Source: Tridacna crocea
Taxonomy: Eukaryota > Mollusca > Bivalvia > Cardiida > Cardiidae
Length of the DNA: 64,000 nt
Assembly: GCA_943736015.1 (NCBI GenBank)
Contig: OX031062.1
Coordinates: forward strand, 53,680,962-53,744,961
Direction: 5' to 3'
Part shown: positions 14,901 through 45,900 of the stretch, piece after piece
How positions within the stretch are numbered: the stretch's first letter is position 1
How the letters are laid out: each line of letters begins with the position of its first letter
The notes under the pieces: model-generated
The model's input: the letters and a program-made list of their open reading frames with translations, nothing else
The model's database searches: none
Told to the model about the DNA's origin: nothing
Program-made: the position numbers and the translations under genes

Positions 14901-17900
14901 GCAGCAATTCTTCCATGTTACTTGCCTTCTACATTAATTTGTTACCTGCTCTCAGCACGAAGAGTCTGGATTTTGTCACTTTTTACCACATGGGCAAAAT
15001 TGATGTGATTATTCTTTGATAGGACAGAAAACTTTGTGGGAAAAGGAGAAAATGCTGCTTACCAGCATTTTCTCCTTTTCACACATTGTGTTCAAAAGGA
15101 TTCTTACTTGGGGTCATTTAAAAGCTGTCATTGCATGGTAAAGAGTGAAATAGATTAGAGTCAAGGTACATTTAGACCTACTTACTTTAACAAACTTGAA
15201 GATATAATAAGCTGGTTTTGCTAGACCAAACAAAGCAAATGCAATTGCACCATACTTCAGTTCTTGTCTCAGCTGTTTTGAAAAAACAAACAAACAATTT
15301 GAGATAAATAATGCAAAGCATAACTAGAGCTGTCACTGAACTTGACTTAATACCCCCGCCAGCACTTTGACAGGAAAAAGTGTCAGGTTCAAGGGGAGAT
15401 AATTCCTCAAGCAGGAAGACCAGACACTGGAAATTGCATTTTGCAAATCTTCACTATACGATCCGTATATGTGCAAAGTTTCAATACAATTGAAGGAAAA
15501 CTGTAGGAGGAGTTCGCGACACAAAGTAATTAGTATTTTGTACACAGACGGACACATGGACGGACGGACACACTGGCTGATTCCGCTATACCCACAAAAA
15601 CATTTGTTTTGCGGGGATATAATTTTAAACCTCTCAGCCATTTCCAGACAATTCCATGTATTAATAACCTTGAACAAGAGACCGTTCAAAAACATTGAGG
15701 GAAAAGAAAATGTTGGGTACTAGCATATTCTCCTTTTCCCTGAATATGTTTTGTTTCTTTTGTCATTTCAAAAACAAATCTCATCAGTTGAGCCGGATTT
15801 AGTATGTTGTCTCTAAATGTTTCCAAGATTGAAGGTCTAACATTCTGTCCATTGGTAAAGAGTTAAGTCTATCTGATGACAAAAATTTAGACTTGTTGAA
15901 ATTGAAATCATTGAGTACAGAACATTGTAGGAAATGGAAAAAAAATGGCTTGAGTGTCTGTTTTTGGAAATGAAACCATAAAATAAAAGATTGACTCTCA
16001 GACTGAGTACAGTTTTCCAGAATTGAAGTTTCTTGCATGTACCGGGGAAACAGTGTTATGAAGACGTGGCCTTTGTCTGCTTCAAATTGGCTTTCAGGAG
16101 GTAACATGTAGTTAATTAACCCTTTGCAAACAATCCCTGGTTTTTATGACCCTGAGATACACGTCTTTTGAAAACATTGCGGGAAAAGGAGAAAATGCTG
16201 GTAACCAGCATTTTCTCCTTTTCCCACAATGTTTTCTACCCTTCACAAAACAAATTTCAAATTTCCAGTCACTTTTATTTTGTCTTCTGCAAATGTTTTT
16301 GAATTGGACAAACCTAAAATTTTTCGTTTGGTAATGACATAATTAACCCTTTACCACACAAAATCTGTAGTTTTTATGACCCTGAGATAGAAGCCTTTTT
16401 GAAACAGCATTTTCTCCTTTTCCCACAATTTTTTCTACCCTGCTGGAAAAAAGTTCAAGTTTTGAGTCATGTTTATTTTGTTGTCTGCAAGTGCTTTCAA
16501 TTTGGACCAGTCAAAAAATTTTGTCAATTTTGTTTTTCAGTAAAGAGTTAATTCTCCACAAAATGACAAAATTTTGGAGATATCTTAATCCAAAGCATTT
16601 GCAAGCAACAAATCCAATGTAGTCTGCACTGTTCAGTTTGCTTTTGCAGGTAAGGAAAACATTGTGGGAAAAGGAGAAAATGGTGGTTACCAAGTTTTCC
16701 AACATCAAACTCAAGATTGTGTGGTAAAAAGTTAACAGAAAACTATTATTATGTGCATGATCCAGTCACTAAAAAGCTTTATAACAGTGTGTCAGGTATA
16801 CCTATACAGGAGTCACATCTATACATAAACCTTACCATGATCCATCCCCCTATACACCATGGCAGTGTGTAAGGTATACCTGTACAGGGGTCACATTTGT
16901 ACACAAACCTTACAATGATCCAGCCCCTATACACCATGGCAGTGTGTAAGATATACCTGCACAAGAGTCATAATTTTACATAAACCTTACCATGATCCAG
17001 CCACCCCTATACACTATGGCAGTGTATAAGATATACCTGTACAGGAGTCACATTTATACATAAACCTTACCATGATCCAGCCCCTATACACCATGGCAAT
17101 GTGTAAGGTATACCTGTACAGGGGTCACATTTGTACACAAACCTTACAATGATCCAGCCCCTATACACTATGGCAGTGTATAAGATATACCTGTACAGGA
17201 GTCACATTTATACATAAACCTTACCATGATCCAGCCCCTATACACCATGGCAATGTGTAAGGTATACCTGTACAGGGGTCACATTTGTACACAAACCTTA
17301 TAATGATCCAGTCCCTGTATACCATGGCAGTGTGTAAGGTATACCTGTACAGGGGTCATATTTGTACATAAACCTAACCATGATTCAGCCCCCTACACAC
17401 TATGATGGTGTGTAAGGTGTACTTGTAAAGGGGTCACATTTCTACATAAACCCTACCATGATCCACCCCCCAACCCCCTATACACTATGACAGTGTGTAA
17501 GGTATACCTGTGCACGGGTCATATTTGTACATAAACCTTACCATGATCCAGCCCCCTACACACCACAACAGCGTGTATGGTATCCCGACAGACAGGGTCA
17601 CAATTTCCAGGTCACTAATGTTGGTCCCATTATTCAGAACAACAATAACCAGACTGATCTGCAATAGAATATAAAAAAAAAAAATCTAAATGTACATATC
17701 TCATTACCAAACCACAATATTTTAGGCTTGTTCAAATTGAAAGCATTTGCAGACGACAAATAAAAGTGACTGAAAATTTGAAAATTGTTTTGTGAAAGGT
17801 AGAAAGGTAGAAAACATTGTGGGAAAAGGAGAAAATGCTGGTTACCAGCATTTTCTCCTTTTCCCACAATGTTTTCTAAAGGCTTCTTTCTCAGGGACGT

Positions 17901-20900
17901 CAAAAGTAGGGATTGTGTGGTAATAGGATATAGGGATCATGATCTGTGGAAAGGGGCATTGGTGCCTCTGCCAAAAGTATCTACCCATTTCAGCCAGCCT
18001 GGTCTGTGCAGGATGACATGGGTCAAAATAAATTTTCTGCATTTTAAAGGACCATTTTACTTGATTCTACTATAAAGTTCTGCCCATTTTAGGGAAAAAA
18101 TATCCATGTAAATACATATGTGACTGCTCACTACAATGCATTACACTGATGTATAAGATCCCTTCTTTAACTCTTTTGTATGACGACAAAATTTTATCCT
18201 TGTCTAAATTGAAGGCGTTTGCAAAGAACAATTTAAACGTGACTCAAATCATGGAACTGAATCCTTGATCGAGTAGAAAACACCGTGGAAAGGGAGAAAA
18301 TGCTTGTTACCAGCATTTTCTCCTTTTTTCACAGTGTTTTCAAAAGGCTTCTTTCTGAAGGGTGTTAAAAGTTGTCATTGTGTGGCAAAGGGTTAAAAGG
18401 CACTGTTTTTTTCCCTTTCATTTTTTCCCACAGCGTCTTCTTCTTGTTGAAAGAAGAATAAATTTCTATTTTTCATTCACAGTTACTTTTTTGTCTGCCA
18501 GAGCTTTCCATTTTGCAACTTAAAAGTTTTGATGTTTGGTAAAGTGCTGATTGAAATGCCAACGTCTGCAAAATCCCAATAATTGCTGGCCAAGGGTGAT
18601 GATCACTATATTGCTATATTCACCTTTGGCTTAACAAGTCAAGATTTGTAATCATGGCAATATGCCGCCTACTTGATGTTGATTGTCACCCTTAGATTAT
18701 ATCATCAAATGTTGTGTAACATTGTCTTTTGGGCAAAACTCTTCACACATAAATTATATGGACAGCCATTCATTTTGGAGTTAAATGTATGCTAATACTT
18801 AATTTATCCCTTTATCACTCAATCCCAAGTATTAATGACCTTGACAGACTTTCGAAAACATTGTGGGTAACCTTTTCCCACAATGATTTCTTATCTTTCA
18901 CAGACTACCTGTATGTCTGTTGCATAAACCAAATTCAATGAGTTGTCTGCAAATACTTTCAATTTGGACTAATCCAAAAATTTAGTTTTTGGTAAGGGTT
19001 TATCTCATTTTGTAAATATTAAAGTAACTATTGTAATTGAAATTTTTATATTTTGGTAAAGATTCACTGCCTATCCAAAAATTTTCTCCCCTGGTTCATA
19101 TAGTTAGCTGATAACAGATACCTAAACACAACACACTTTTGGATTTGGAGTGCAACAAAAGATTACAGTTACTTCAGGGGTTACAAATATCAACTTGACC
19201 AGCCAAGGATGAATAGATCAGGGTAGTAATCATCACCCTTGGCTTTCAAGGATTTCAGATTCTATAAATACCTAGCCTGAAAACTCACCGTCACTTGAAG
19301 ATCAAATTTCAACAGGCATGAAAAAATGGCAGCTCGGTTGTAAATTGCTGAAATAAACAATCAAAATTAACAAGTCAATAATATGTATTAGCCCTTTACC
19401 AACCAACAAATTTTTATTCTTTCCAATTGAAGACACCTGCAGACGGCCATTCCACAACCTTTTCTTTGAGTTGCAGCTGTCTAGAAGGGTAGAAAGATTT
19501 GTGGAAAAAGAGAAACTGCCCTGAACGAGCAATTTCTCTTTTTCCCACCATGTTTTCAAAAACCTTTTACACCAGGGATTATTTGTTAACCCTTTACCCC
19601 ATAAGGCATTTCTATGGTATCTCTAATACATAGATCCGTGGAAATCGATATTTGACCAATCAGGTTATCGCATTTATTCTACCCGATGTGCATCGTTGTG
19701 TTCTGCCATTTCGGCTCACAAATAAACGATTGTTAACGTTGGGGGGATGCGATACTATTTATCTATTTTGTGTTTTTAACGTTTTAATTTAAGAAAAACC
19801 TTAAAATATGTGCTTTGTCTGTGTGCACCACTGACGTGAGAGCACACAGGTTATAGACAAGTTTGAATTATGATAATGACTGAAAATTTGGACTAAAGTA
19901 AAGAGCTCTGATGAGCCCTGGAAAATGGATTTATATAAATAATGCTTACCCCTCTGAAAGAGAAAAATTGAAAACAAAGGTGAAAATAGACCTATATGAA
20001 ATACTAATAAAAAAGAAAATACGTTTACTTTAATATCAAACCTTGTTGAATAACCTATGCACATCCAAAAAGTGGCCGCGTAACTTGTCACCAATGTTTC
20101 AGTTTGACATTAATCTTAACCCATGGTGCATGAAGAATATGCTAAATGTTAGATATAGATCAGACTGAAAATTACATGTTGTTTAGTCTTAGATTTAAAC
20201 TACTGCTATTTACAATAAGCACTTCAAATGACGTGTACTTCCTCACTAAGAGTAGATTTCAATTTTAAAAAGGTTTATCTTATGTACTAGTGGAAGTTTA
20301 GCTTAATGGGCAACATGGTAATTTTTGTCTTGACTTATATTTTTCAACCGTTAATCAGATAAACCCGAGTTTTAACGACCCTTAGAAGGCTGTTAAAAGC
20401 ATCGCGGAAAAAGGAGAAAATGTTTGTAACATCCATTTTCTCCTTTTTTGACAGTGTTTTGTGCTCTTTCAAAAAAAAAATCAATTTTTGCATCATTTCT
20501 TTTCTTGTCTACAAATTTTTGAGGTTGGGTTGTTCTAGAAATTTTGTCATTTGGTGAAGAGTTTGATTGGATTAGCACATCTGCACATTAGCACAAAGGG
20601 TGAAGCGTGTTTGATTGCAAAACAATTTACCGGTCTAATCAACTTGACCACCCATTGTCATCAGTATATCATAAGATAAAAAAAAAATCTGTCAATGATA
20701 ATAACAATTTTTATAACTGACAACACACAACACATTTTATAATCATCAGACAACCCTTTTCCCCTTAACCTGATATTGAAAATTTTCATTAATTTAAACC
20801 TCTCTGTTGAATCAGACAGTCTATAAATTTTTCGAAAGTTTTGTAATTCAGTGTTATTTAATTTGGTAAGATGCTGAAATGACTTTACTAGCCAAACGAA

Positions 20901-23900: not shown

Positions 23901-26900
23901 TTTTGATGCTCCTGGGAAAGAAGCCTTTTGAAAACATTGTGGGAAAAGAAGAAAATGCTGGACAAGAGCATTTTCTCCTTTTCCCACAACATTTTCTTCT
24001 CTATCAAGAAAAATTACACAATTTGAGCCACAATGAAATTGTCGTCTGCAAATATTTTCAATTTGGATAAGGCTAAAATTTTGTCGTCTGGTAATGGGTT
24101 AAAAAATTATGTCAGGTGAAAAAGAATCAATGTGTCATCTGCAGATGCTTTCAAAATGAGCGAGTCTATTATTCTCATGTTAGATAAATGTTCAGTACCT
24201 TGCAAATGACCTGATGCTCCGGCAATCCTGAATTCCAGTTCACCAAAATCCCGTGCAACGAGAATTGACAAAATAATGTTGGGTGGAGCAAATACACAGG
24301 CAATGATCAACCGTCCCTATAAAAGAAAACACAGAAACACTTAATTAGCTTATCAACCCCTGCAGAAAAATTCATTTTGTATACCAGCTAGTAACAGACC
24401 AGAATTGAAAACATTGTGACAAAGATGATATAGCTCATTGTTAACACCTGAAAAGTGATCGAACCATTTTCAAATCTTATTTACCTCATTACACCCTTTA
24501 TCAAACAATTCTGACTTTTAACAGCCCTGAGGAAAAGGCCTTTTGAAAACATTGTGGGAAAAGGAGAAAAGGCTGGTAACCAGCATTTTCTACTTTTCCC
24601 ACAATGTTTTCTATCCTTCCCAAAGCAAATTTCAAACACTGAGTCATGCTTATTTTGTTGTCTGCAAATACTTTCAATTTAGACGTGTCTAAAGTTCTGA
24701 CTTTGGTAACAGATTAATTCCTGCACGGTTTTTCATTTGTCCTTCAGCAGACTACCCCAGCAAACATCGCGCCAAAAGTTCAAATAACAGCACACCCCAT
24801 TGTTACCTGGCAATGTGTCTTTTGCTTCAAGTTTTTCACTGAAAAAAGATATGATTTGATTTTTTACCTATAACTGTTCGGCCTACAGTTAAACTGTGAT
24901 AGGTGTATTTCAAGAACAAAGTAGAAACTCCAACTTTGTACAGGCCAGTTCTAGAATGGGTTGATACATATTTTATGCAGAACTCAAGCACTGACAGTTT
25001 TAACCAGTCTTCTATAAAAATCTAGTGACTAAGCATTGTGGCTGGGGTATTAACTCTTTACCACACGAGAAAATTTTAGGCTGGTCCAAATTGAAAGCAT
25101 TTGCAGACGACAAAATAAAGGTAAATGAAAAATTGAAATTTGTTCTGGGAAGGGTAGAAAACACTGTGGGAAAAGGAGAAAATGCTGGTTACCAGCATTT
25201 TCTCCTTTTTCCACAGTGTTTTCAAAAGGCTTCCTTCTCAGGGGCGTCAAAAGTAGGGACTGTGTGGTAATGGGTTAAACTCTTTACCAAACAATAACAA
25301 GTTCCAATGACCCAACTGGAGAAAGCCTTTGAAAATATTGTGGGAAAAGGAGAAAATGCTGGTAACCAGCTTTTTCTCCTTTTCCCACAAGGTTTTCATC
25401 CCGTTCAAAGACAAATCTCATTTGTTGACTGTCACTGATTTCGATGCAGACAAGTCCTACATTTCGTTGTGTGGTTAAGGATTAACTCATTATCAAACAA
25501 CAAAATTCTAGGTTTGTCCAAATTGAGAGCATTTGCAGACGACAAAATAAAAGTGACCGAAAATTTGAAATTTGTTCTGTGAAGGGTAGAAAACATTGTA
25601 GGAAAAGGAGGAAATGCTGGTTACCAGCATTTTCTCTTTTTCCCACGATGTTTTCAAAAGGCCCCTATCTCAGGGTCGTAAAAACAGGGATTGTTTGGTA
25701 ATGGGTTAAGCTGTAAATAATATAGATTTCCATCATTGTTTTCCACAGGGTCCTTGAAACATGTGACTGCTTGTAAATATATCATAGATTGTTTGGCATT
25801 ATGTTATAGAAAGTAAATAAACGAAAGTGAACATTTAACCCTTTACCACACAATCCAGACTTTTAACACCCCTGCGAAAGAAGCCTTTTGAAAACATTTT
25901 GGGACAAGGAGAAAATGCTGGTAACCAGCATTTTCTAATTTTCCCACAATCTTTTCTTCCCTTCCTAAATAAATCTTAATTCGTTAGTCATGTTCATTTT
26001 GTGGTCTGCAAATGCTTTCAATTTGGACCAATCTAAAATTTTGTCATTTGGTAAAGGGTTAAACGAAAGTGAAGAATACTTGCTACACTTACACAGTTTA
26101 CAATTTGCAACACTGACTTGCAAGCAAACTCCATGACTTACCAGTTTCACAGAGGTTCGTTTACCACTATTTGTTGAATACTCCACAATGCAGTAGACCA
26201 AAATTACCAGAATGGCAATTATTTGAACATACAGCTCATAAGTTCTCTCTCGTATGACACCATGTATTACATAGAATGCAACAAAACCTGAGAAAAAACA
26301 CGGACAAGAATATGAAAATCATAAACATAATACATGTACTCTATTTTCTGTTCATGGTGTGTATTCATCCAGGGAAAAAAATCAATCTACACGTATTTCG
26401 ATAATCTTGCTTGGAAGTAAGCTAATAAAATAAATAAATCACCTGTACTCTTTCTTAATATGGTGATTTTGCTTTTTTTTGCACAACAGTAATACCATGT
26501 GATATATTATTTAACCTATTACTACACAATCCCTACTTTTGACGATGCTGAGAAAGAAGCCTTTAGAAAACATTGTGGGAAAAAGGAGAAAATGCTGGTA
26601 ACCAGCATTTTCTCCTTTTCCCACAATGTTTTCTGCCCTTCAAAAAATAAATTTCATTTTTTCAGTCACTTTTACCTTGTCATCTGCATTTGCTTTCGAT
26701 CTGGACAAATTTCGTTGTTTGGTAATGAGTTAAAAAAACTAATGGCAAGTCTAGATCATTTTTGTTTACCCTTTGACTACCATTACCAAGTCAATGGAAA
26801 AAGAATCAGGTGGTAGAAAGGACCCAGAAACTGCAAAAAAAACAAAGAGAACAATCTCTGCAGCAATATCTTTTGATATACTGTGCAGGGTTGATCCTAA

Positions 26901-29900
26901 GTCTATGATCATTCAGTACTTTGGGTGCAGATTGCTGTTTGATCTTCATTAACAGTGTCTGCAAATGCAACAGTATGTAATCTTAAGACTACCTGATCCT
27001 TAACCCTTTACTCCAAAGATACTCATTTCTACGCATTGCTTGTAGGAGCCTTTGGAAAACATTGTGCCAACAGGTGAAATTGCTCGTGACGAGCAATTTC
27101 ACCTTTTGTCACAATGTTTTCTATGTTATCAAAAGGTCTCATATACACATAAGAAACTGCTTCATCCTTGCTGTTATTTAGGGTCAACTACATATACCAT
27201 AGAAATGCCTTATGGGGTAATAAGTTAATATCATGTCTATTCTACTTTTGTTCATCCTTTTATAAAGGATTAGCTATTTTCCTACTGTCGAAATCTTAAA
27301 AGAAGGACTTTGACCGGAACATAGAAAGATCTGTAGAAGATAACCCTCATATTCCATCCTCCACACTCCACATAAAAGGACGTAAACTAGATACAGAAAA
27401 GAACTGATCAGTACAGAGCCCCAGATAAGAGAGAATGATGGTATTCCAATTCCATTATTTCTCTTCTAAACCGTTTATGTTATGGGTACTCATTAGAATC
27501 GTCTCTTCGAGAATGAGTACCCATAACATAGGTTTTAGTGGAGAATGATTAGTATTTTCAATTTTGGAATTAAAATCACTTCCTCATTCTTGAGCTCTGA
27601 AGTACCAGCATTGACTAAGATGAGAATGGTAAATGTGAAGTCTGGAGAGTGTGTGTTTTCTGTCTCTACAACATGAACAAGGCTGTAAATTGTGAGTCCA
27701 ATGGCAGCACCAATGCTCAGGAAACTCAGCAATAAAAACAGTTTCTCTTTTGTGGTCAATCCAGCAAATGTCTTGGTCTGAAAGACAAACAAATTTTGTC
27801 AAGCATCTACCATAGATGAAAAGGAATTTTTGCAAAGGTAAAAGGGGAGTAAGACTTCTAATACAATATAAAGCAAGAGTGTGATAGAAATAGAAATGGA
27901 AAAAAGGTTGATAATACTTTTGACTTTGTATCATTGTAAATTTTATTATTACAAATAAGTCTATGCCAGATGGTAAAATTTTGAACATGTTCACATTGCA
28001 AGCATTTTGCTGACAAGACATGAGTGTGGTTCAAAAGATTAGATTCATTTTGTTTACAAGAGTCTTCTTTTTCAGGATTTTTAGACTATAGAACAAGCAT
28101 GTCCCTTTAGGTCCATCTTTTTCCAACTCCAGGTTGATAACTCTTTACCAAACGACAAAATTTTGGACTATTCCTAATTGAAAGCATTTGCAAATGATAA
28201 CATAAATGTGACTCAAATGCTGAAATTTGTTTAGGGAAGTACAGAAAACATTGTGGGAAAATGAGAAAATGCTGGTTATCAGCATTTTCTCTTTTTCCAG
28301 CAATTTTTTCTAACGGCACGTTTCTCAGGGTTGTTAAAATTTGGGATTGTGTGCTAAAGAATTAAACATTTTTACTTTAAATCAATTGAGATACAATTTC
28401 TTACAACTTCTACTTATTTCCCTCCATTCTGCTCCCTTGCTTGTGCCGAATGTAACTTAACCCTTTACCACTCAATCCCGTCTTTTAACAACCCTGAGAA
28501 CGAAACATTGAAAACATTGTGGTAACTAGCATTTTCCCCTTTTCCCACAATGTTTTCTATCCTTTCCAAATCAAATTTCAATTTTAGATTCAAATTTATT
28601 TTGTCGTCTGCAAATGCTTTCAATTTCTACTGGTCCAAAATTTTGTCGTTTGGTAACAAGTTAACATGTGGACGAATGACCAATCGCAAAGTTGGCACAA
28701 CTCGCTGGTATTGTGTAGCAGGTGATTATTATATCCAATGACTATCATTTGATTCTATTTGATCATTGCAGATTCATTAGATCTAGATCAACCTATATGT
28801 TGGTGAATGTTCTCTCTCTCTCTCTCCATAGATGTACAGATCTAATTCCATTTAAAAACTCTCCCTATCCTGGAAAATTCAAGGTTCTAGATAAATTTTC
28901 ACCCTTTGCCAAATTTCAAGTTCTATAAGGCTGTGAATACGTTGTTGGAAGAGAACATACTGTTTGTGAATGGAGACTAATTCAACTATTTCTTCTAATT
29001 AAGCCATATTCAATTTGTCAATTGCAAATGCTTTTAATTCAGACTGTTTCTAAGATTTTGCAGTTAACTTGTCTATGCCATGTGGCTTGCAACACACTCA
29101 AAGGGTCTTCTGGACATTTGTGTAAATTTTTGTCTCGGATCAGCCCGCACAGTTCGCACTGGCTGATCCGAGACGGCACTTTAAAATGACTAGATCTAGC
29201 TTTTAGACTTTGTGCTGCGGTAGTAGATTTGAGCAAAACAGAATTGCATAAAAACGGAAGGTGACATTGCGTAAATTGTTGTCTTGGATCAGCTTGCGCA
29301 ATCTGCACAGGCTGAGCCGAGACGACACTTTACCGTTTACGCAAATGCCCAAATACCCCTTTTCGCGCGTTGTACTTGGTCTAGTCCATTTACACTTACT
29401 TAGAGTGAATAATACATAACGCTACACTTTGCGGGTTTCAAGACAGTTCCCCGACAAGACAGTTCCCCGATATAAGTTTTGGAGACAGTTCCCCGACACT
29501 TTTGAAGACAGTTCCCCGACACTTTTGAAGACAGTTCCCCGACACTTTTGTTCGATGTCAAACAACAAAATAGATATTATCGTATATAAAAAGAAATTTT
29601 TGATAAGGGATTATATGGATAAATGATCTTTTGTGACTAATTGAAGTCTTTGTTAATGTATGTTATTGGCGAGTACGTACATTTGATCATCGTGGTCTAT
29701 TAACTTAGTTTGACAGAACAATTTGACAGCCTATCGTCACAAAATATCAAGACATTATCGAAATTACATGTACATTCTCCGAAATGCTGTGCATACAAAG
29801 AGAGAACTACAATATACATGTATGTAAAATTGTTCGAGAGTACAAGATAAACAGAAAAGGTATTTCACTCGGTAACACCCCCCCCCCCACCTCGCCCTCT

Positions 29901-30470
29901 CTACTGTAGGCCTATTTCTATAAAACAGGGGAAAGCATGTAGGCCTATACGTAACTAAACTACAAATTATTAAAGACTTTATAGAATAAACACAAAATAC
30001 TCATTTTGATGCTGGCTAAAAGTGCCCTTAAAATTCTGTTATGTTCAATACAGCCGTGATTCATTGTGAATTCATCCATGAGACAATAACTACCCGTCAA
30101 TTTATATAGCAATCTTCTTCACAAGGTACAGATAATCCGATCACAACATCAATTATCCACGAATAATTCAATTTCTCATGATTATCAATTATAGTTTTGT
30201 TAATTCTACAGTATAAAAGGTAATTTTCCATGAAACAAAAGTGTCGGGGAACTGTCTTCAAAAGTGTCGGGGAACTGTCTCCAAATCTGTCGGGGAACTG
30301 TCTCCAAAACGTGTGTCGGGGAACTGTCTTGTCGGGGAACTGTCTTGTTCCCCACTTTGCGGACTTACCTTTCCGAACAGAGTTGTGACAGTCGTTTTAG
30401 GAACGTCTGGTATACCGAACCTTGTATAATCTCCCGAGTCATTTTGGTCATTCTGTTCTGTTTCCTCCAT
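11836..30470 (-). CDS. Seven-span membrane protein gene, nine exons, complete
   Basis: Assembled by hand from nine minus-strand exons (30470-30369, 27777-27606, 26287-26142, 24316-24199, 19347-19289, 17658-17542, 15272-15186, 13864-13804, 11942-11836), all with GT-AG junctions and one continuous frame of 322 codons. Residues 1-34 are polar and acidic (cytosolic tail). About seven hydrophobic spans follow: near residues 46-68, 84-105, 110-130, 141-163, then one begun by KFDLQVT and exon 6, one in exon 7 (AIAFALFGLAKPAYYIF), and a last long one across exons 8-9. The tail NFGQGLKDRGTVNLR ends in TAG at 11836-11838, and an AATAAA lies about 31 nt beyond. No catalytic motif or signal peptide was seen. 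The layout is reminiscent of an uncharacterised invertebrate membrane family (possibly DUF7789), a recollection I cannot check. It shares a 421-bp divergent promoter region with the stress-protein gene. Function unknown. Confidence 0.8.
11985..12219 (-). mobile_element. hpA copy, complete
   Basis: Starts 43 bp before exon 9 of the membrane protein gene. The right TTAA is mutated to TCAA. Confidence 0.83.
12226..12452 (+). mobile_element. hpA copy, diverged
   Basis: Core GCTGGATACCAGC; right end GTGATAAAAAGTTCA. Confidence 0.7.
12453..13289. other. Intron 8 sequence of the membrane protein gene
   Basis: Apart from the hammerhead-like motif at 12584, unassigned AT-rich DNA. Confidence 0.45.
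12584..12625 (+). ncRNA. Hammerhead-like motif (relic?)
   Basis: ACCTGAAAAAGGTAAATGCC is followed by GAAACGTC. The layout (CTGANNA, a short stem, GAAAC, GTC) resembles the minimal hammerhead of Penelope-type retroelements. Stem III would be minimal and the CUGANGA box is imperfect. No retroelement frame was found beside it. Confidence 0.25.
13290..13765 (-). mobile_element. hpA copy split by a SINE
   Basis: Decayed left part from 13290; its right terminus CAAAGGGTTAA is duplicated by the SINE insertion at 13488-13751. Confidence 0.65.
13488..13751 (-). mobile_element. tRNA-derived SINE with 14-bp target duplication
   Basis: Minus-strand reading starts with a tRNA-like head (GGGTGGCTCAGTGG, then GTGAGTTCGATACCC as box B). 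The duplication CTTCAAAGGGTTAA is at 13474-13487 and 13752-13765. The target is the right end of an hpA copy. Confidence 0.8.
13804..13864 (-). CDS. Membrane protein gene, exon 8
   Basis: Sixty-one nt after TTAATAG: VYKQLDDENNKMFVYIILFC plus the first base of a Gly codon. The acidic loop QLDDENN precedes the last hydrophobic stretch. The donor is GTAAGT. Confidence 0.75.
14107..14320 (+). mobile_element. hpA copy, nearly complete
   Basis: Left TTAA; right end GGGAAAGGGTGAA has one change. Perfect stem. Confidence 0.83.
14496..14711 (+). mobile_element. hpC subfamily copy
   Basis: The centre is ATTGCTCGTAATGAGCAAT instead of GCTGGTWACCAGC. The arms are hpA-like but diverged; right end GGGTTAA. 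Confidence 0.75.
14770..14940 (-). mobile_element. hpA copy, decayed
   Basis: Long-arm words remain (TTTAAAAGCATTTGC) with a broken stem. Confidence 0.45.
14978..15150 (-). mobile_element. hpA copy with shortened long arm
   Basis: TTTTTACCACATG start, good stem, end GGTAAAGAGTGAA. Lies 36 bp from exon 7 of the membrane protein gene. Confidence 0.68.
15186..15272 (-). CDS. Membrane protein gene, exon 7
   Basis: Twenty-nine codons, phase 0 on both sides: LRQELKYGAIAFALFGLAKP, then AYYIFKFVK. Acceptor TTTCAAAACAG, donor GTAAGT. One hydrophobic span flanked by basic residues. Confidence 0.78.
15324..15628 (+). repeat. Dispersed repeat H, copy 2
   Basis: Starts ACTAGAGCTGTCACTGAACT and ends TTTTGCGGGGATATAAT, with CAGACGGACACATGGACGGA inside. 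In intron 6 of the membrane protein gene, 51 bp from exon 7. Confidence 0.7.
15661..15866 (+). mobile_element. hpA copy, diverged
   Basis: TTAA at both ends; core GGGTACTAGCA shortened. Confidence 0.65.
15863..15945 (-). mobile_element. hpA left fragment
   Basis: Shares the preceding TTAA; ends in a decayed stem (ACATTGTAGGAAATGG). Confidence 0.5.
16116..16346 (+). mobile_element. hpA copy, complete
   Basis: Left end TTAACCCTTTGC, strong stem; the right terminus decays to GGTAATGACATAATTAA. Confidence 0.84.
16343..16551 (+). mobile_element. hpA copy missing the left stem
   Basis: GCCTTTTTGAAA joins directly to CAGCATTTTCTCC. Shares TTAA on both sides with its neighbours. Confidence 0.8.
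16548..16735 (-). mobile_element. hpA copy missing most of the right stem
   Basis: GGTGGTTACCAAGTTTTCC follows the left stem directly; ends GGTAAAAAGTTAA. Confidence 0.72.
16787..17619 (-). repeat. 78-bp exon-derived minisatellite (about 11 units)
   Basis: Unit starts at 16787, 16865, 16942, 17022, 17099, 17176, 17253, 17330, 17408, 17493 and 17571, so the period is 77-80 bp with one 85-bp unit. Read on the minus strand, each unit carries a copy of the exon 6 end (GIPYTLLWCVGGWIM; GIPYTLPWCIGGWIM in one unit), the splice-donor sequence ATCATG GTAAGG, and about 20 nt of intron. The unit at the high-coordinate end is the real exon 6 boundary. Several other units keep an identical donor. The rest of the array lies in intron 6. 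Confidence 0.85.
17542..17658 (-). CDS. Membrane protein gene, exon 6 (source of a minisatellite)
   Basis: Thirty-nine codons in phase 0 on both sides: ISLVIVVLNNGTNISDLEIV, then TLSVGIPYTLLWCVGGWIM. It contains an N-glycosylation-type NIS. The donor is ATG|GTAAGG. The last 60 or so bases of the exon and the start of intron 6 form the outermost unit of the 78-bp tandem array that follows immediately at 16787-17619. Confidence 0.8.
17696..17930 (-). mobile_element. hpA copy, nearly complete
   Basis: Perfect stem; both TTAA ends mutated (ATCTCATTACCA, GGTAATAGGATA). Starts 38 bp from exon 6 of the membrane protein gene. Confidence 0.82.
18167..18396 (-). mobile_element. hpA copy, complete
   Basis: TTAA at both ends; a stem of variant sequence (CACCGTGGAAAGG). 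Confidence 0.83.
18408..18547 (+). mobile_element. hpA right half, decayed
   Basis: Begins in TTTTTTCCCACAGCG and ends TTTGGTAAAGTGC. Confidence 0.5.
18803..19002 (+). mobile_element. hpA copy with shortened hairpin
   Basis: The stem is cut to AACATTGTGGGTAACC then CCCACAATG; ends decayed. Confidence 0.68.
19289..19347 (-). CDS. Membrane protein gene, exon 5
   Basis: A short exon of 59 nt after TTATTTCAG, encoding IYNRAAIFSCLLKFDLQVT in the only frame without a stop. Both junction phases match their neighbours. The donor is GTGAGT. Confidence 0.75.
19387..19589 (-). mobile_element. hpA copy, diverged
   Basis: Stem TTTGTGGAAAAAGAGAAAC; right TTAA shared with the hpD copy that follows. Confidence 0.65.
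19628..21282. mobile_element. 1.65-kb insertion with 14-bp inverted ends, inside hpD
   Basis: Ends ACATAGATCCGTGG and CCACGGATCCATGT are inverted repeats. It interrupts an hpD copy whose flanks read CTCTAAT and ATTGACCC, against CTCTAATTGACCC in other copies, which implies a 2-bp AT duplication. It carries an hpA copy but no clear coding region. Family unknown. Confidence 0.65.
20350..20562 (+). mobile_element. hpA copy, diverged, inside the 1.65-kb insertion
   Basis: Stem GGAAAAAGGAGAAAATG paired across a GTTTGTAACATC centre; right end TTTGGTGAAGAGTTTG. Confidence 0.65.
21476..21711 (+). mobile_element. hpA copy, complete
   Basis: TTAACCCTGCGCC at left, CAGTAAAGAGTTAA at right; begins 5 bp after the hpD end. 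Confidence 0.82.
21845..22090 (-). mobile_element. tRNA-derived SINE, minus orientation, diverged
   Basis: Minus-strand head GGCTGTGATAGCTCAGTTGA and a box-B-like GGGTTTGATGCC. The body is shared with 52620-52910 (CTTTCCTAGACTCTCTTTTA). Confidence 0.55.
22084..22226. mobile_element. Short repeat with C-run and CTACGT ends, copy 2
   Basis: Starts in a C run, then ATAATTTTGAAAATCATAGT, ends CTTCCTACGTGGCTG. Homologous to 55228-55385. Confidence 0.5.
22231..22315 (-). mobile_element. hpA right part
   Basis: From CCTTTTCCCACAATG to GGTAAAGGGTTAA, attached to the short repeat at 22084. Confidence 0.72.
22457..22689 (+). mobile_element. hpA copy, complete
   Basis: Both TTAA ends. Stem variant GGATAAAATGCTGGTAAC with the matching ATTTTATCC on the other side. 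Confidence 0.87.
22700..22854 (-). mobile_element. hpA copy, decayed
   Basis: Weak stem (TTTTTGGAAAAGGATAAAA); ends in GGTAAAGGATTAA shared with the next copy. Confidence 0.55.
22851..23071 (+). mobile_element. hpA copy, left tip lost
   Basis: TTAACCAAACAATCC start, good stem, right end GGTAAGGGTGA. Confidence 0.78.
23115..23338 (-). mobile_element. hpA copy, decayed core
   Basis: Ends TTAACTCTTTATAA and GGTGAAGGGTTTA; stem broken by an A-rich run. Confidence 0.65.
23409..23636 (+). mobile_element. hpA copy, nearly complete
   Basis: Strong stem; termini ATTATCCCTTTCCC and GGTAAAAAGTAAAG. Confidence 0.8.
23679..23875 (+). mobile_element. hpA copy, truncated on the right
   Basis: TTAACTCATTACTAC start; weak stem; runs into the next copy at ATCAAG. 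Confidence 0.62.
23876..24102 (+). mobile_element. hpA copy, nearly complete
   Basis: GACCCTTTACCACAC at left, GGTAATGGGTTAA at right. Ends 97 bp from exon 4 of the membrane protein gene. Confidence 0.78.
24199..24316 (-). CDS. Membrane protein gene, exon 4
   Basis: Encodes GRLIIACVFAPPNIILSIL, then ARDFGELEFRIAGASGHLQ. A proline pair sits inside the fourth span. It ends in phase 1 at GTACTG, completed by CA from exon 5 to give Ala. Confidence 0.78.
24489..24717 (+). mobile_element. hpA copy, nearly complete
   Basis: TTACACCCTTTATCA and GGTAACAGATTAA; good stem. Confidence 0.78.
24718..25049. other. Intron 3 sequence of the membrane protein gene
   Basis: No repeat or exon recognised. Confidence 0.45.
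25050..25278 (-). mobile_element. hpA copy, complete, first of a chain of three
   Basis: TTAACTCTTTACCA and TGGTAATGGGTTAA; strong stem. Confidence 0.9.
25275..25485 (+). mobile_element. hpA copy, second of the chain
   Basis: Shares TTAA on both sides; the long arm is shortened and diverged. Confidence 0.78.
25482..25709 (-). mobile_element. hpA copy, third of the chain
   Basis: TTAACTCATTATCA and TTGGTAATGGGTTAA; good stem. Confidence 0.87.
25835..26062 (+). mobile_element. hpA copy, complete
   Basis: Both TTAA ends; ends 80 bp from exon 3 of the membrane protein gene. Confidence 0.86.
26142..26287 (-). CDS. Membrane protein gene, exon 3
   Basis: After a pyrimidine-rich TTTTTTCTCAG acceptor the frame continues as FVAFYVIHGVIRERTYEL, a third span (VQIIAILVILVYCIVEY) and a basic loop NSGKRTSVKL, ending in phase 0 at GTAAGT. 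Confidence 0.8.
26511..26733 (+). mobile_element. hpA copy, complete
   Basis: TTAACCTATTACTA and GGTAATGAGTTAA with a strong stem. Confidence 0.87.
27000..27238 (+). mobile_element. hpD copy, complete
   Basis: TTAACCCTTTACTCC, stem ACAGGTGAAATTGCTCGTGA with its inverse, end GGGGTAATAAGTTAA. It serves as the empty-site reference for the hAT insertion at 59711. Confidence 0.87.
27414..27599. mobile_element. Palindromic element, copy next to exon 2 donor
   Basis: Arms pair from CAGAGCCCCAGATAAGAG to the inverted end near 27599. The central hairpin is TTATGGGTACTC / GAGTACCCATAA around 27480-27535. Homologous to 49855-50052 throughout. Its end lies 6 nt from the GT of the exon 2 donor. Confidence 0.75.
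27606..27777 (-). CDS. Membrane protein gene, exon 2
   Basis: Acceptor TTTCAG, then TKTFAGLTTKEKLF leading into a strong hydrophobic span, a luminal or outer loop (VVETENTHSPDF) and the start of a second span (TFTILILVNA). It ends in phase 1 at the donor GTACTT. A palindromic element starts 6 nt into the intron. Confidence 0.8.
27958..28085 (-). mobile_element. hpA fragment, core deleted
   Basis: Long-arm words (GGTAAAATTTTGAAC, GCAAGCATTTTGC) joined to TCTTTTTCAGG. Confidence 0.45.
28137..28365 (-). mobile_element. hpA copy, complete
   Basis: Left end ATAACTCTTTACCA, right GCTAAAGAATTAA; stem with GGTTATC centre. Confidence 0.83.
28457..28664 (+). mobile_element. hpA copy with shortened left stem
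   Basis: AACATTGTGGTAACTAGCA lacks the purine tract, which survives on the right side. Confidence 0.8.
28665..28989. other. Intron 1 sequence of the membrane protein gene
   Basis: Contains a (TC)n run at 28811-28826; otherwise featureless. Confidence 0.45.
28990..29065 (+). mobile_element. hpA right-arm fragment
   Basis: CAATTGCAAATGCTTTTAATTC and an eroded end GCAGTTAAC. Confidence 0.45.
29077..29370. mobile_element. Short inverted-repeat element (family F), copy 2
   Basis: TGTGGCTTGCAACACAC on the left and TTTTCGCGCGTTG on the right, with hairpins TCTCGGATCAGCC / GGCTGATCCGAGA inside. Diverged from 36605-36885. It lies 55 bp from the 918-bp element. Confidence 0.65.
29435..30352. mobile_element. 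918-bp element with terminal 23-bp tandem repeats
   Basis: Each end carries several copies of a 23-bp unit (AGACAGTTCCCCGACACTTT...), inverted at the right end (GTCGGGGAACTGTCTTC). The flanking duplication CACTTTGCGG is at 29425-29434 and 30353-30362, giving a 9-10 bp target site. The interior is AT-rich without a transposase. It abuts the exon 1 donor of the membrane protein gene. Confidence 0.8.
30369..30470 (-). CDS. Membrane protein gene, exon 1
   Basis: Thirty-four codons beginning ATG GAG GAA and rich in E, Q, N and D, ending TTLFGK in phase 0 before GTAAGT. The ATG is the first in the divergent promoter region. The intron side is only 6 nt long before a mobile-element target duplication begins. 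Confidence 0.8.
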
Positions 30471-30891
30471 AACTCAATCACAAGAGCTGATCAGCCTGAC
30501 AGTTATGCATCCATGTTTTCCTCTTCAATCATGTGACATTCTATTTTTAGATTCGAACTAATAAATTTAGGAAAACTGTAGAATTCATCCGGTTATAATT
30601 GGTGGGTTTGTTTAGTAAGTTAAGAAATAAATAATCTAATCGAACAAAAAAGGAAGCTTTGGTTTTTGCATTTTGTTTTCAAAACAGTTGTATTAGAACA
30701 TGAACCTAGTGATAAAGATATCTTTGGATGGAAGATATACTTCCTGATGTCTGATTATCTAAATTTCATTTCTGATGAATATAAAATCATAACTTCCTAG
30801 AACAATATTACACTAGGATTTTAGCTTATAAATTATCTGTGAAACGTGCTCACCAAAACAGAACAACTTGGAGGAGGAGCAGAGTGGAATA
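30471..30891. promoter_or_regulatory. Divergent (head-to-head) promoter region
   Basis: The 421 bp between the start codons of the minus-strand membrane protein gene and the plus-strand stress-protein gene. It is AT-rich, carries no hpA-type element (unlike most equal stretches nearby), and shows an ATTGG (CCAAT on the minus strand) at 30598-30602. No TATA box is convincing. Shared regulation is an inference from spacing only. Confidence 0.5.
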
Positions 30892-30988
30892 ATGACTGAA
30901 CAGACAACAAACGCTTCCGCAGAAAGTGAAGGACGAGTTGTTCTTATAGCAATGGATAGTAGTGAATACTCTGACTATGCGTTTGAAT
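30892..30988 (+). CDS. USP gene, exon 1
   Basis: Thirty-two codons plus one base: polar leader MTEQTTNASAESEGR, then the first beta strand and nucleotide-contacting loop. Donor T|GTAAGT splits the Trp codon. A 790-bp inverted-repeat transposon begins 56 nt into the intron. Confidence 0.9.
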
Positions 30989-33900
30989 GTAAGTCTAATT
31001 TACAGTTAATTTTGTGTCATCAAATGGTGACGCTAGGCCTGTGCTACCTTCAGTCTGAAGGTGTCTGCTCCGATGCTATTTTTGTGACTGGTCTTCGCTA
31101 ACACCTTCATATCAGCCATTCATTAAACGCTTATGGAAAAAATACGATTTTACCCGCATCTTTTCGAACGGCTCAATGCGATAAAATTTCCAATGACAGC
31201 TAATAAAATGGGCATGGATCGTTAGATAAATGATTAATCTTCAAGAGCACTAAAAATATGCTGCAAAATACCCATTAAATCAATGGGAATTTACCTTTTT
31301 TCTCAACGTAAATAAATCCAGCATAATTTGTAAACAACTAACATGGCGACTTCCGTTAGTCAGGCATGCGCACTCAACGGAATTTGAATTTTGTACAGTC
31401 TGGTTCCCTAACCCTATACAGTCAAGTTCGATCAAGGTGCGTTTGTTTACAGCAAAATTCGCAACTAAACCGTCCTGTAGCGTGTCAGAGATACTGCGAT
31501 TTCTGCCGAGACATGCGCATTGAAAAGATCACCATGTTTTGATTTCTGGTGAAGTAGGTCAATGGTTATTTACGTTGAAAAGTACAGATTTGCACAAAGG
31601 TAAGAGTTGGATATTAACTCACACCAGTTTTTTTGTAAAGGTTAATCATTTATCTAACGATCCATGCCCATTTTATTAGTTGTCATTGGAAATTCTGTCG
31701 CATAGAGCCGTTCGAAAAGATGCGCGTAAAATCGTATTTTTTCCATAAGCGTTTAATGAATGGCTGATATGAAGGTGTTAGCGAAGACCAGTCACAAAAA
31801 TAGCATCGGAGCAGACACCTTCAGACTGAAGGTAGGCCTGTGCCTGTTGACCGTACACAGTACAGATAACAGTCCCCAAGTTGCCCAATGGCAGTGTCAT
31901 TAGTTGTACAATACGGTCAGGTGGTAGGGGACTTGGAAACTTGTTCACGGCTGTGGTTAATCATGTCGCCCTGAGTCGAAGACGAGGTTGCGACATGATT
32001 CGCCGTGAACAAGTTTCCAAGTCCCCTGCCACTTGACTGTACAACAACTTTATTATACTGCAAAGTTTTACCCTTTCAAATCGAATTTCCTGTTTTATGA
32101 TCTCATGAATCGAGTATGCTGACAAAATAGAAATTCCCTTCCAATGCCCCAATTCAGCGAAAACTCCCATCACTGGAAGCTGACGTCACTAAAACATGCG
32201 GTTTGGTGCATAAACGTGCAGTCTGGTGATCGATTGACGGCCGCCATTAAGGATGTTGTGTTGCATGTGTAGTGATGTTTACGGGGCACTCAAAAGGGAT
32301 ACTGGCTTTACATGGTTTTTGCCAGGATACATGATATATATGTTCCCGGCATGTTAACCAACCAGATCATGAGAGATTCCTTTGCAGTATGATAATATTT
32401 TTTGACTGGTTGGCTCTGGGTACAGAGACAATCAAGACAAAACCAGTTAAAAGTTCCACACAGATTTTGTGCACAAGTTTGAACTCTCATGATTTCGCAA
32501 ATAGAGCACAAAACAAGGATTTAAACATACCTGTTGCTTGTATACCCTACATTGAAAAAAAGAGAAATATTGACTCTAGGTAAGACTTTAGAACCACACT
32601 TTATCTATTTTTATGCAATACAGCTTTTTTTCTTCAATGTGAATACAGATTTCATCATTTGACAAAAACTTTACTGACACTCGGATGGAAAGGAAGTTGG
32701 GTGCGCAAGAAAATTCTATAAATTTTCAGCATAAAGAATGTATAGGACGTAACAAATGTATGAGTCTTGGGCTTAATTTCACATGAGGATAAGTGTCACC
32801 GTTCTATGGTTAGAACTTGAGATTGTGTGGTAAATGTTAACTCTTTACCAAATGACAAAATTTTAAACTGGTATAAATTAAAAGCACTTGCAGACAACAA
32901 CAAAAAAAATCTAACTCAGAAATGGAAATTTATTTCCATCAGAGGAGAAAACATTGTGGGAAAAGGAGAAAATGCTGGTTATCAGTCTTCAAAAGGCTTC
33001 TATCTTAAGGTTGTAAGAGCCAGGGATTGTTTGGTAAAGAGTTAATCTTTATAGCCTTTTAAAAGTTTAATTCAGTTCTTTACCCATTACAAAACCATCA
33101 AGGTTGGTAATCACCCTGAGGAAGCAGGTTATTGAAAATATTGTATTAAAAAGAAAAAACACATGTATTAGCTATTTACCATACAATCTCGAATTATAAT
33201 GACCCTGAGAAAGAAAGAAAGCCTTTGAAAACATTATGGGGGAAAGGGAGGAAATGTTGGTAACCAGCATTTTCTTCTTTTCCCACAATGTTTTCTACCC
33301 TTCTACCATGCTAGAAACAAACTGAAACAAATTCCAACTTTTGAGTTATGTTTATTTTTTCGTCTGCAGGTGCTTTCAATTTAGACCAGTCTAAAATTTT
33401 GTCCTTTGGTAGAGTTTATCAAAGGACAAATATCTCTATACTTAGGCTGGTCCTATTTGAAAGCATTTGCATACAAATTAAATGGAGCTCAAATGATGGA
33501 AAAATGCCTTTGAAAGGGTACAAAACATTATAGGAAAGAAGGAAATGCTGGTTACTGTTTTCAAAAGTCCTCCTTTTCCTGGTTTTTATGACTCTGGATT
33601 GTGTGGTTAAGGGTAAAACAGACAGTTTCCTGTTAACTCCTTACCAAACGACAAAATTTTAGACGAGTCAAAATTGAAAGCACTTGCAGATGACAAAATA
33701 AACATAACTGGAAACTGAAATTTATTTCGAGCAGGGTAGAAAACATTGTGGGAAAAGAAGAAAATGCTGGTTACCAGCATTTTCTCCTTTTCCTACATAG
33801 TTTTCAAAAGGCCTCTTCCTCAGAGTCGTTAAAACTGGGGATTGTGCGGTAAGGAGTTACAGTGTCCCGAGGGAAGGTTTTTTTTTAAAACATTGTGGAG

Positions 33901-42900: not shown

Positions 42901-45900
42901 TGGGACAGGAGTGGCTGACATTGGTGATGAACTCATGGCAATATTAGAAACTGCAGCTGTACCGGTTTGATGAAAATATAGAAGTATGTGAAAGAAGACA
43001 AAAGCCGCTATGTACAGGAAATATGCACAAGCATTAGCACATGTGTATTTCCCATTTACCATTGCACAAGATTTGCTTTCAGACTTATACCACATGGGTG
43101 ATATATACAACTAATATACATGTACGCATATGATATTTATACAAATGAAACCACGAGAGAAACATTTTTGAATCATTTGCCTAGATTACTGTGCTCTGAT
43201 TGATCTAATGGTAGGGAAAGGGTTTCCAGAAAATAAAATGGATCATTAAATATTGAAATTCGCTACTGCATTACATGTTTGTATTTCCTATCAGTGTGTA
43301 TACTGGTATACACGTAATAGTATACCTGCTATGATATTATAAGAATGAGTAGAAAACCTTTACAAAGAAATGTTCTTTGAATAATTAATGTAATGCATGT
43401 GTGGATGTTTCTACTGCTACATTTTACAGTTGGTCAAAATTTTAGGCAGACCGTGGTTTCTTTAAAAATTCTAGCAGGGGGTCTGGTGGATGTTTCTACT
43501 GCTACATTTTACACTTGGTCAAAATTTTAGGCAGACCGTGGTTTCTTTGAAAATTCTAGCAGGGGGTCTGGTGGATGTTTCTACTGCTACATTTTACACT
43601 TGGTCAAAATTTTAGGCAGACTGTGGTTTCTTTGAAAATTCTAGCAGGGGGTCTGGACACTTTTCCCGTCCCACCCCATCCTGGATTTGCCAAAGGTCTG
43701 CATGTGGTTTTTATGGTATTTGTCAAAGACAATACCACTATGAGTTCAATAATGAATTTTGAAGGCCATGTATCATATTTTGTGCAAAGCCAAAGTAAAT
43801 AAACCCAATTAAACACAATTTTTCTCAGGCAAATGATTGTTTTTGGTAGGACTCAGATATATAATTGGAAATGGCATGTTAAAATACACTGAGTGAGGCC
43901 ATTGATTGTGGAAAAACTAATTTTTGATTGAAAATAGCTACACTCTGTCATAGCCTTCCATTGGCGCAATGATACATAATTTGTCTACAGATCGGTTGAT
44001 CCTTGGCTTTTTCATTCTAAAACCAGTTTGTCCCATTGCTTGTTCATCCTACGATTGTGCGCTTCTCCATTTTATTTGGCATGGACATTTGTAGATCGAA
44101 ATAATTAATTGTAATGTTTGGATTTAAGTGTTATCGGCTAAAGAAATTTAAAAATCATAGTTTTCAGGTAAAAACTTAACTTTATTTGATTATTCACATG
44201 GTTTCTCTCTCTATCCATCATGCATCATACTGTCAAGGAATGTTTCTCCCGACTCTTAACCCTTTACCAAACAATCCCTGGTTTTTACGACCCTAAGATA
44301 GAGACATTTTGAAAAGTTTGTGGGAAAAGGAGACAATGCTGGTAACCAGCATTGTCTCCTTTTCCCACAATGTTGTGAGTTACATTCATTTTGTCATCTG
44401 CAAGTGCTTTCAATTTGGACCAGTCTAAAATTTTGTTGTTTGGGAAAGGGTTAATGATCAAAAGGAGACCACCGATACACAAATAATGCAAACTTTTTCA
44501 TGACTACTCTCCCTTGAACCAAAAAGGTATTCATTTGTTTAGTTGGTTGACTTTCAACCCAGTATTTGACTCATATGTCTCTTTTTCTTTCAAATCATTA
44601 ATTCTACACAATGGCTTCCTTGACAAATACCACTTTAGTGTTCTCAACGCTTTGATTAGTACAGTAAAATCTGCCATAGTGACCTTCTTTAGCTAGCTTG
44701 TAACTTTTATAAAGTAATCATATAATAAGATTATGTTGCTTTGTTACCGGTTACGTTTATTATTGTGAATAGACCCCTTTTCCAAACAATCTAATGTTTA
44801 AAAGACCGTGAGAACATTGTAGGAACATGAGAAAATGCTGGTAACCACTGTTGAATTTGTGGTCTGCCAGTTATTTCAATTTTGAAAAGTCTAAAATTTT
44901 GTTGTTTGGTAAAGAGGTTTTTTTTACTATTTACAGATTTATTTAAACACCTTGTACACAAGAATGGTTAAATAGTATATGGATACTCTATGTCGTGCAT
45001 ACATGTACATGTATATAATATACACCATCAAGCATCAAGTTTTAACCCATTACCACACAATCCCTACTTTTGACGCTCCTAAGAAAGAAGCCTTTAGAAA
45101 ACATTGTGGGAAAAGGAAAAAATGCTGGTAACCAGCATTTTCTCCTTTTCCCACAATGTTTTCTACTCTTCACAAAACAAATTTCAAATTTTCGGTCACT
45201 TTTCTTTTGTCGTCTGCAAATGTTTTTAATTTGGACAAGTCTATAATATTGTCGTTTGGTAATGAGTTAAGAAGCCACCCACAGGTTGCAAATGCAACAA
45301 CCAAAACACAGGCTTCTTTTCATCCAACCTAGAATTTCCTCTGACAGTTGGTTTGTTTATGTTTAGTAGCTTCTCATTAATATAGTGATCATTAAAACCC
45401 ACGAACAAGCATCCCTATTTTAAAATACTGATTGCTTGTTACTTGTTTAAAATGAAAGTTAAACATTGAACTAAGTGCACCTTCCTTTGGCATAAAGAGA
45501 CTTTACTATAGTTGGAATACATTTATAATTGTTACTGATTTGGGCCAACCCTTTATACAAATACCGTTTGACTCATCATGCAAAAAGGGACCTTTTTGTA
45601 ACTGCAAAAAGTATCAACCCTGGTCAGACTGTGTGAATTGTGCAGTCAAGGAATTCCCGGATGATCCTTTTTTCGGTGACGGGTCCCAAATATGAAAGCC
45701 TTAATTTGAGTGCTTAACCCTTTACCTCACAATCCGACTCTTAACGAATTGAAGAAGAAGAAGGCTTTTGAAAACATTGTGGGAAAAGGAGAAAATGCTG
45801 GTTACCAGCATTTTCTCTTTTTCCCACGATGTTTTCTACTGTTCCAAAGACAAATTTCAAATCTTTAGCATGTTTATTTTTTCGTCTGTAAATGCTTCCA

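Follow-up and report, generated by a model that had tools for sequence, protein, structure and literature searches.

The DNA analysed here, referred to as the window, is 64,000 nucleotides long and contains on its minus strand several exons that match the Pfam family PF25044 (DUF7789). Three of them, which we call the preceding exon (IYNRAAIFSCLLKFDLQVT), the source exon and the next exon, give a single match spanning both junctions when they are joined in phase (65.9 bits, E = 4.3e-18); it is the addition of the preceding exon that lifts the score from 47.6 bits to this value. Two exons farther upstream, joined to each other, form a first DUF7789 copy with a score of 63.1 bits, and they are taken to belong to the same gene. 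Both copies exceed the curated cut-off of 25 bits. The source exon has 117 nt, or 39 codons, and is in phase 0 at either end. A literature search on DUF7789 found no paper, and neither a PDB sequence search nor Rfam gave a match; a scan of viral contigs gave two loci, with 35% identity over 37 residues (E = 2e-4).

The end of the source exon is the beginning of a tandem array. On the minus strand, from 17586 to about 16756, there are eleven head-to-tail units, most of them 77-78 bp long. TRF calls the array at 16785-17583 with a period of 77, 10.2 copies, 83% matches and a score of 1052; the stretch 16735-17658 scores 1038, and the best of 100 dinucleotide shuffles scores 57. With several head-to-tail copies of a unit above about 10 bp, beyond what chance would give, the array is a minisatellite. 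The eleven unit starts were set by anchoring on GGTATACC-like words, and units u0 to u9 are then 78, 85, 78, 77, 77, 77, 77, 80, 77 and 78 bp long. Table 1 lists the units and the other features.

Table 1. Features of the DUF7789 gene and of the array at its source exon (positions in the window; in the motifs, a slash marks the exon-intron junction)
Feature	Position	Strand	Basis or remark
Upstream exon, first DUF7789 copy	27606..27777	-	63.1 bits joined with 26142-26287
Upstream exon, first DUF7789 copy	26142..26287	-	63.1 bits joined with 27606-27777
Preceding exon	19289..19347	-	raises the DUF7789 score
Source exon (exon 6 of the first-pass annotation)	17542..17658	-	DUF7789 match; AG before, GTAAGG after
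Real 5' splice site, GTAAGG	17536..17541	-	junction to 15272 placed by the DUF7789 match
Unit u0: end of the source exon, its donor (after 17542) and 33 intronic nt	17509..17586	-	unit alignment
Units u1-u9, nine full intronic units	16803..17508	-	TRF and unit alignment
143-nt block, two-unit copying	17158..17300	-	exact second copy at 17004-17146
Decoy donor u4, ATG/GTAAGG	17219..17227	-	exact match
Decoy donor u6, ATG/GTAAGG	17065..17073	-	exact match
Decoy donor u7, ATG/GTAAGG	16985..16993	-	exact match
Decoy donor u9, ATG/GTAAGG	16830..16838	-	exact match
Unit u10, last, truncated and decayed	16756..16802	-	unit alignment; similarity stops at ATCATG
Next exon (exon 7 of the first-pass annotation), 29 codons	15186..15272	-	DUF7789 match runs on into it

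The first unit, u0, consists of the last 45 nt of the coding exon, which include the exon side of the ATG/GTAAGG 5' splice site, and of 33 nt of the intron. Its identity is 78-83% with u1-u9 and 56% with u10, and blastn of the exon plus the start of the intron against the array gives E values down to 1.6e-20. The claim of the first-pass annotation that the unit repeats the end of the exon together with its own splice donor is thus well supported by the alignment, the identity and the blastn search. Units u4 and u6 are identical, and the other pairs among u1-u9 differ by 3-21%. In u10, the similarity to the unit stops exactly at the last bases of the exon, ATCATG (16756). The original start of the intron would be expected past this last copy; it is not seen there and has presumably been lost or has decayed.

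The exonic part of the unit may be longer than 45 nt. Four of the 11 blastn alignments begin at exon position 53-54, and the exonic share of the unit may therefore be about 65 nt, with the intron contributing only some 15 nt; this would add about 20 nt of the exon. In a shuffle test with anchored alignments, applied to u0-u3 and the consensus, the longer exonic part had P values of 0.0008-0.026; in an unanchored test, P was below 0.05 in three of ten units (u1, u4 and u6).

The window contains other repeats. The array itself was considered as a dispersed repeat, but this was rejected because blastn found no second copy of it in the window at E values up to 0.001. Another large tandem array, with a unit of about 166 bp, 8.3 copies and 83% matches, is present at 61673-63037, and an 85-bp unit occurs three times at 43401-43656 (98% matches). 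Two arrays of a 23-bp unit (29439-29562 and 30224-30347) are inverted repeats of each other, 92% over 124 nt with 661 nt between them, possibly the termini of a mobile element. Another inverted repeat, of 198 nt and 97% complementary, lies at 31044-31241 and 31638-31835, its arms 396 nt apart. It adjoins an open frame (30832-31101) whose start we take to resemble a universal stress protein; Pfam gave no match to this frame up to an E value of 1. Finally, a short palindromic MITE-like repeat, with a core like TGCTGGTAACCAGCA and flanking arms GGAGAAAA and TTTTCTCC, is present in several introns (about 17805-17885, 16170-16240, 15030-15105 and elsewhere).

As to the origin of the array, the protein profile is informative. 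When the 15 repeated residues of the exon are masked, the DUF7789 score drops from 65.9 to 39.6 bits, and when they are omitted, it is 37.4 bits and the match is split into two stretches. By themselves, the preceding and source exons reach 38.4 bits, and continuing the reading from them into the intron gives 38.2 bits. Because masking costs score and reading into the intron adds none, the end of the exon is old, and the coding part ends at 17542. The first-pass annotation had named proof that 17542-17658 is not an exon as something that would overturn its reading; the profile match across the joined exons shows that it is one. Since the 15 repeated residues supply 26 of the 65.9 bits, the exon is most likely the source of the array.

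The exact repeats inside the array provide some information on its growth. The 143-nt block repeats exactly at an offset of 154, which equals two 77-bp units, and there are further exact repeats of 69 nt at offset 234 and of 47 nt at offset 388. Therefore, the copied blocks spanned some two units or more, with breakpoints inside the units, and from its sequence the copying of the 143-nt block is recent. The 143-nt and 69-nt repeats agree with the suggestion of the first-pass annotation that partial pairs of units were copied together. The same annotation proposed to align the units for their order of growth. In a tree that omits u10, the supports are low: the grouping of u0 with u2 has 0.69, and that of this pair with u1 has 0.74.

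The differences between the exon and the array also display a pattern. Over the 45 exon-derived columns, four positions separate the exon from all ten intronic units, and all four are synonymous third positions. The probability that this would happen by chance is 0.0024 if all single changes are considered and 0.007 for transitions, although the sample is small (only four fixed differences) and the test was picked after the alignment had been seen. For comparison, 26 changes are variable within the set of ten intronic units, and nine of these are synonymous when judged by the codons of the exon (Fisher one-sided P = 0.026 for 4/4 versus 9/26). This observation would suggest that the array has not overwritten the exon, and it is consistent with an exon whose evolution continued independently of the array and under constraint on the protein.

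These results bear on two other accounts of how the array came about. One is that the repeat came first and that the exon was extended into an intronic minisatellite. The 78-83% identity between the exon and u1-u9 would be expected then too, since alone it gives no direction. However, the repeated residues lie inside the DUF7789 profile, which loses 26 bits without them, and the four fixed differences are all synonymous; we consider this origin scarcely credible. The other account is that a true but smaller duplication was inflated during assembly. The 143-nt identity and the identical units u4 and u6 speak for such an error, and the size of the array could be affected by it. Most of the units must be real, however, because apart from this pair, those among u1-u9 differ from each other to the extent given above, and an array whose size is partly an artefact is highly improbable.

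The donor sequence has been multiplied along with the exon end. The motif ATGGTAAGG occurs at five sites on the two strands of the 64-kb window, all of them in the array, namely the real donor and the copies in u4, u6, u7 and u9. The exact nonamer is thus present in four of the nine full intronic units, where the first-pass annotation had counted at least three, and GT is present in eight of the nine. As that annotation also stated, most of the remaining units have a GT-containing variant: u1 (GTAGGG), u2, u5 and u8 do, and u3 has lost the GT (ATAAGG). A ladder of donor copies inside the intron, its main point, is therefore present at the sequence level. The predicted pairing with U1 is -8.5 kcal/mol for the real donor and for each of the four exact decoys and -8.2 kcal/mol for u1; it is weaker than that of u1 in u2, u5 and u8. 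A second series of donor-like sites, CAG/GTATA, is found at the unit start in eight of the ten intronic units, with a predicted pairing of -7.2 kcal/mol. By a home-made score, there are 15 donor-like sites in 805 nt versus two in the remaining 1462 nt of the intron; the minus strand of the whole window, array included, has 3.1 per kb. All of these scores come from home-made counts of pairing and from duplex energies computed with ViennaRNA rather than from a trained predictor.

If a decoy donor were used, it would introduce a stop codon. An exon ended at any of the u1-u9 donors runs into one common stop, the 58th codon counted from the exon start. This stop precedes the junction with the next exon by 31 nt for u1 and by 109-652 nt for u2-u9.

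The acceptor-like sites are less regular than had been reported. The motif CCTGTACAG, described in the first-pass annotation as present in each unit, is exact in six of the ten intronic units, and u2 does not have the AG. The upstream pyrimidine fraction of the candidate acceptors is 0.47-0.53 compared to 0.65-0.82 at five acceptors of the gene, where the value of 0.65, from the exon at 27.7 kb, was computed at a position shifted by one base. Pseudo-exons formed from an acceptor and a donor of the same unit in u1-u9 would be 43 nt long in five cases, 44 nt in two, 46 nt in one and 51 nt in one. The predicted length of 44 nt thus holds for two of the nine; as for breaking the frame, the 51-nt pseudo-exon is in frame but contains a stop. 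Each of the nine gives a stop, either internally or by a frameshift in the next exon.

What the ladder does, if anything, can be explained in several ways. Conceivably, it is a working rheostat, in which decoys compete with the real donor and divert transcripts to decay, and in which the array length is under selection. The four exact donor copies, the eight CAG/GTATA sites with their somewhat weaker pairing and the excess of donor-like sites over the rest of the intron would suit such a device, as would the human ABCA7 gene, where longer VNTRs are associated with reduced expression and with more frequent skipping of the next exon (PMC5954066). On the other hand, conservation in the donor columns does not exceed that of the remaining columns of the unit (across u1-u9, a column has on average 0.67 and 0.66 minority bases, respectively; permutation P(<=) = 0.60, with low power because there are nine related units). 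The GT is gone in u3, the donors of u2, u5 and u8 are weakened, and, in ABCA7, retention of one unit is independent of VNTR length and no influence of length on decay was observed (PMC5954066). Given this variability, there is no sign that the ladder has been maintained for a function, and selection on it is disfavoured within the little power of that test; the rheostat is unlikely. Still less can be said for units that are spliced as tandem cassette pseudo-exons, or for CAG/GTATA as a recursive splice site. It is true that this motif places an acceptor-like and a donor-like sequence at one point in eight of the ten units and that the same-unit spans measure 43-51 nt, but the poor pyrimidine content, the lack of AG in u2 and the stops brought in by all nine pseudo-exons make this very unlikely.

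We favour, with a probability of roughly 80%, a near-neutral minisatellite that arose from a tandem-duplicated exon-intron boundary and causes some unproductive splicing. A single tandem duplication of about 78 bp would have covered the last 45-65 nt of the exon, the donor and the first bases of the intron. Unequal exchange or slippage would then have enlarged the intronic copy into the ten further units, in part by two-unit blocks, with the exon remaining under constraint at the protein level and separate from the array. Presumably normal mRNA is made from the 5'-most donor and the remaining donors are leftovers of the duplication, some of which may be bound by the U1 snRNP. Use of a decoy would give a transcript with an early stop, probably cleared by nonsense-mediated decay, and a slight reduction in productive mRNA is the likely consequence. 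Decoy use may also be substantial, because the predicted U1 pairing is as strong in four decoys as in the real donor and nearly as strong in u1.

A bolder version, which we consider rather unlikely, is that the array acts as a brake on splicing whose strength depends on array length, with the number of donors setting the loss of pre-mRNA, and that the intronic copies are a fossil of older codons of the exon. If so, individuals that differ in array length would make different amounts of the DUF7789 protein, and the intronic units would be a fossil record of the synonymous changes of the exon.

Exon-boundary repeats are already known, and the array is a further case of the kind to which the human ABCA7 and CBS VNTRs belong. 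The repeats of the CBS VNTR create alternative donors. A literature search for a VNTR with "multiple splice donor" found none, and among the matches listed for exon-boundary repeats, there were two others of the kind, both human; the organism here is apparently not human. What defines the kind is that the unit includes the 5' splice site of the exon, which it does here, and so the array is not a new type of object (PMC5954066, PMC2630376).

Intron gain by tandem duplication is a related process. In the Rogers model (PMC4974935), a tandem-copied exonic segment or intron-exon boundary provides spare splice signals in tandem, as in this array; the examples are ATP2A1, 24-bp segments in fission yeast and a potato RdRp. 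This process was rejected here, since the DUF7789 match appears to pass straight from the source exon into the next exon and gains no score from the intron side. A new intron is not evident; instead, copies of the 5' boundary of an existing intron have made that intron longer.

In the CBS gene, a 31-bp VNTR, c.1444_1467+7(16_21), is located at the boundary of exon 13 and intron 13 (PMC2630376, PMC5188458, PMC1395315). Like the unit described here, it combines the end of an exon with the start of an intron, 24 exonic and 7 intronic bases according to its name (PMC2630376). More repeats have been reported with lower CBS activity (PMC2630376, PMC5188458, PMC1395315). The CBS VNTR differs in its shorter unit, its 16-21 copies and its polymorphism in people (PMC2630376, PMC5188458, PMC1395315).

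The ABCA7 VNTR in intron 18 is also a tandem repeat right at the 3' end of an exon, and it starts with the donor of exon 18 (PMC5954066). In this gene, the donor one unit downstream is also used, by which exactly one unit is retained, out of frame and with a stop; two isoforms are put at 14 and 2% "respectively", of which we take the 2% to refer to unit retention (PMC5954066). The higher exon skipping with longer arrays is not accompanied there by more unit retention. The ABCA7 unit is 25 bp long, with 23.7 reference copies, and its array is very variable in length, is linked to disease risk and has been studied with RNA-based data, whereas the present array, with ten intronic copies of 77-78 bp, is known from one sequence (PMC5954066). 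Moreover, the ABCA7 unit starts at the GT, and the unit described here also carries 45-65 nt of coding exon (PMC5954066). The array is a clear example of a minisatellite that arose at the boundary of a coding exon, with a unit long enough to show the direction of copying and the constraint on the exon, and its near-identical donors are a natural series in which the choice of the spliceosome among repeated 5' splice sites can be tested.
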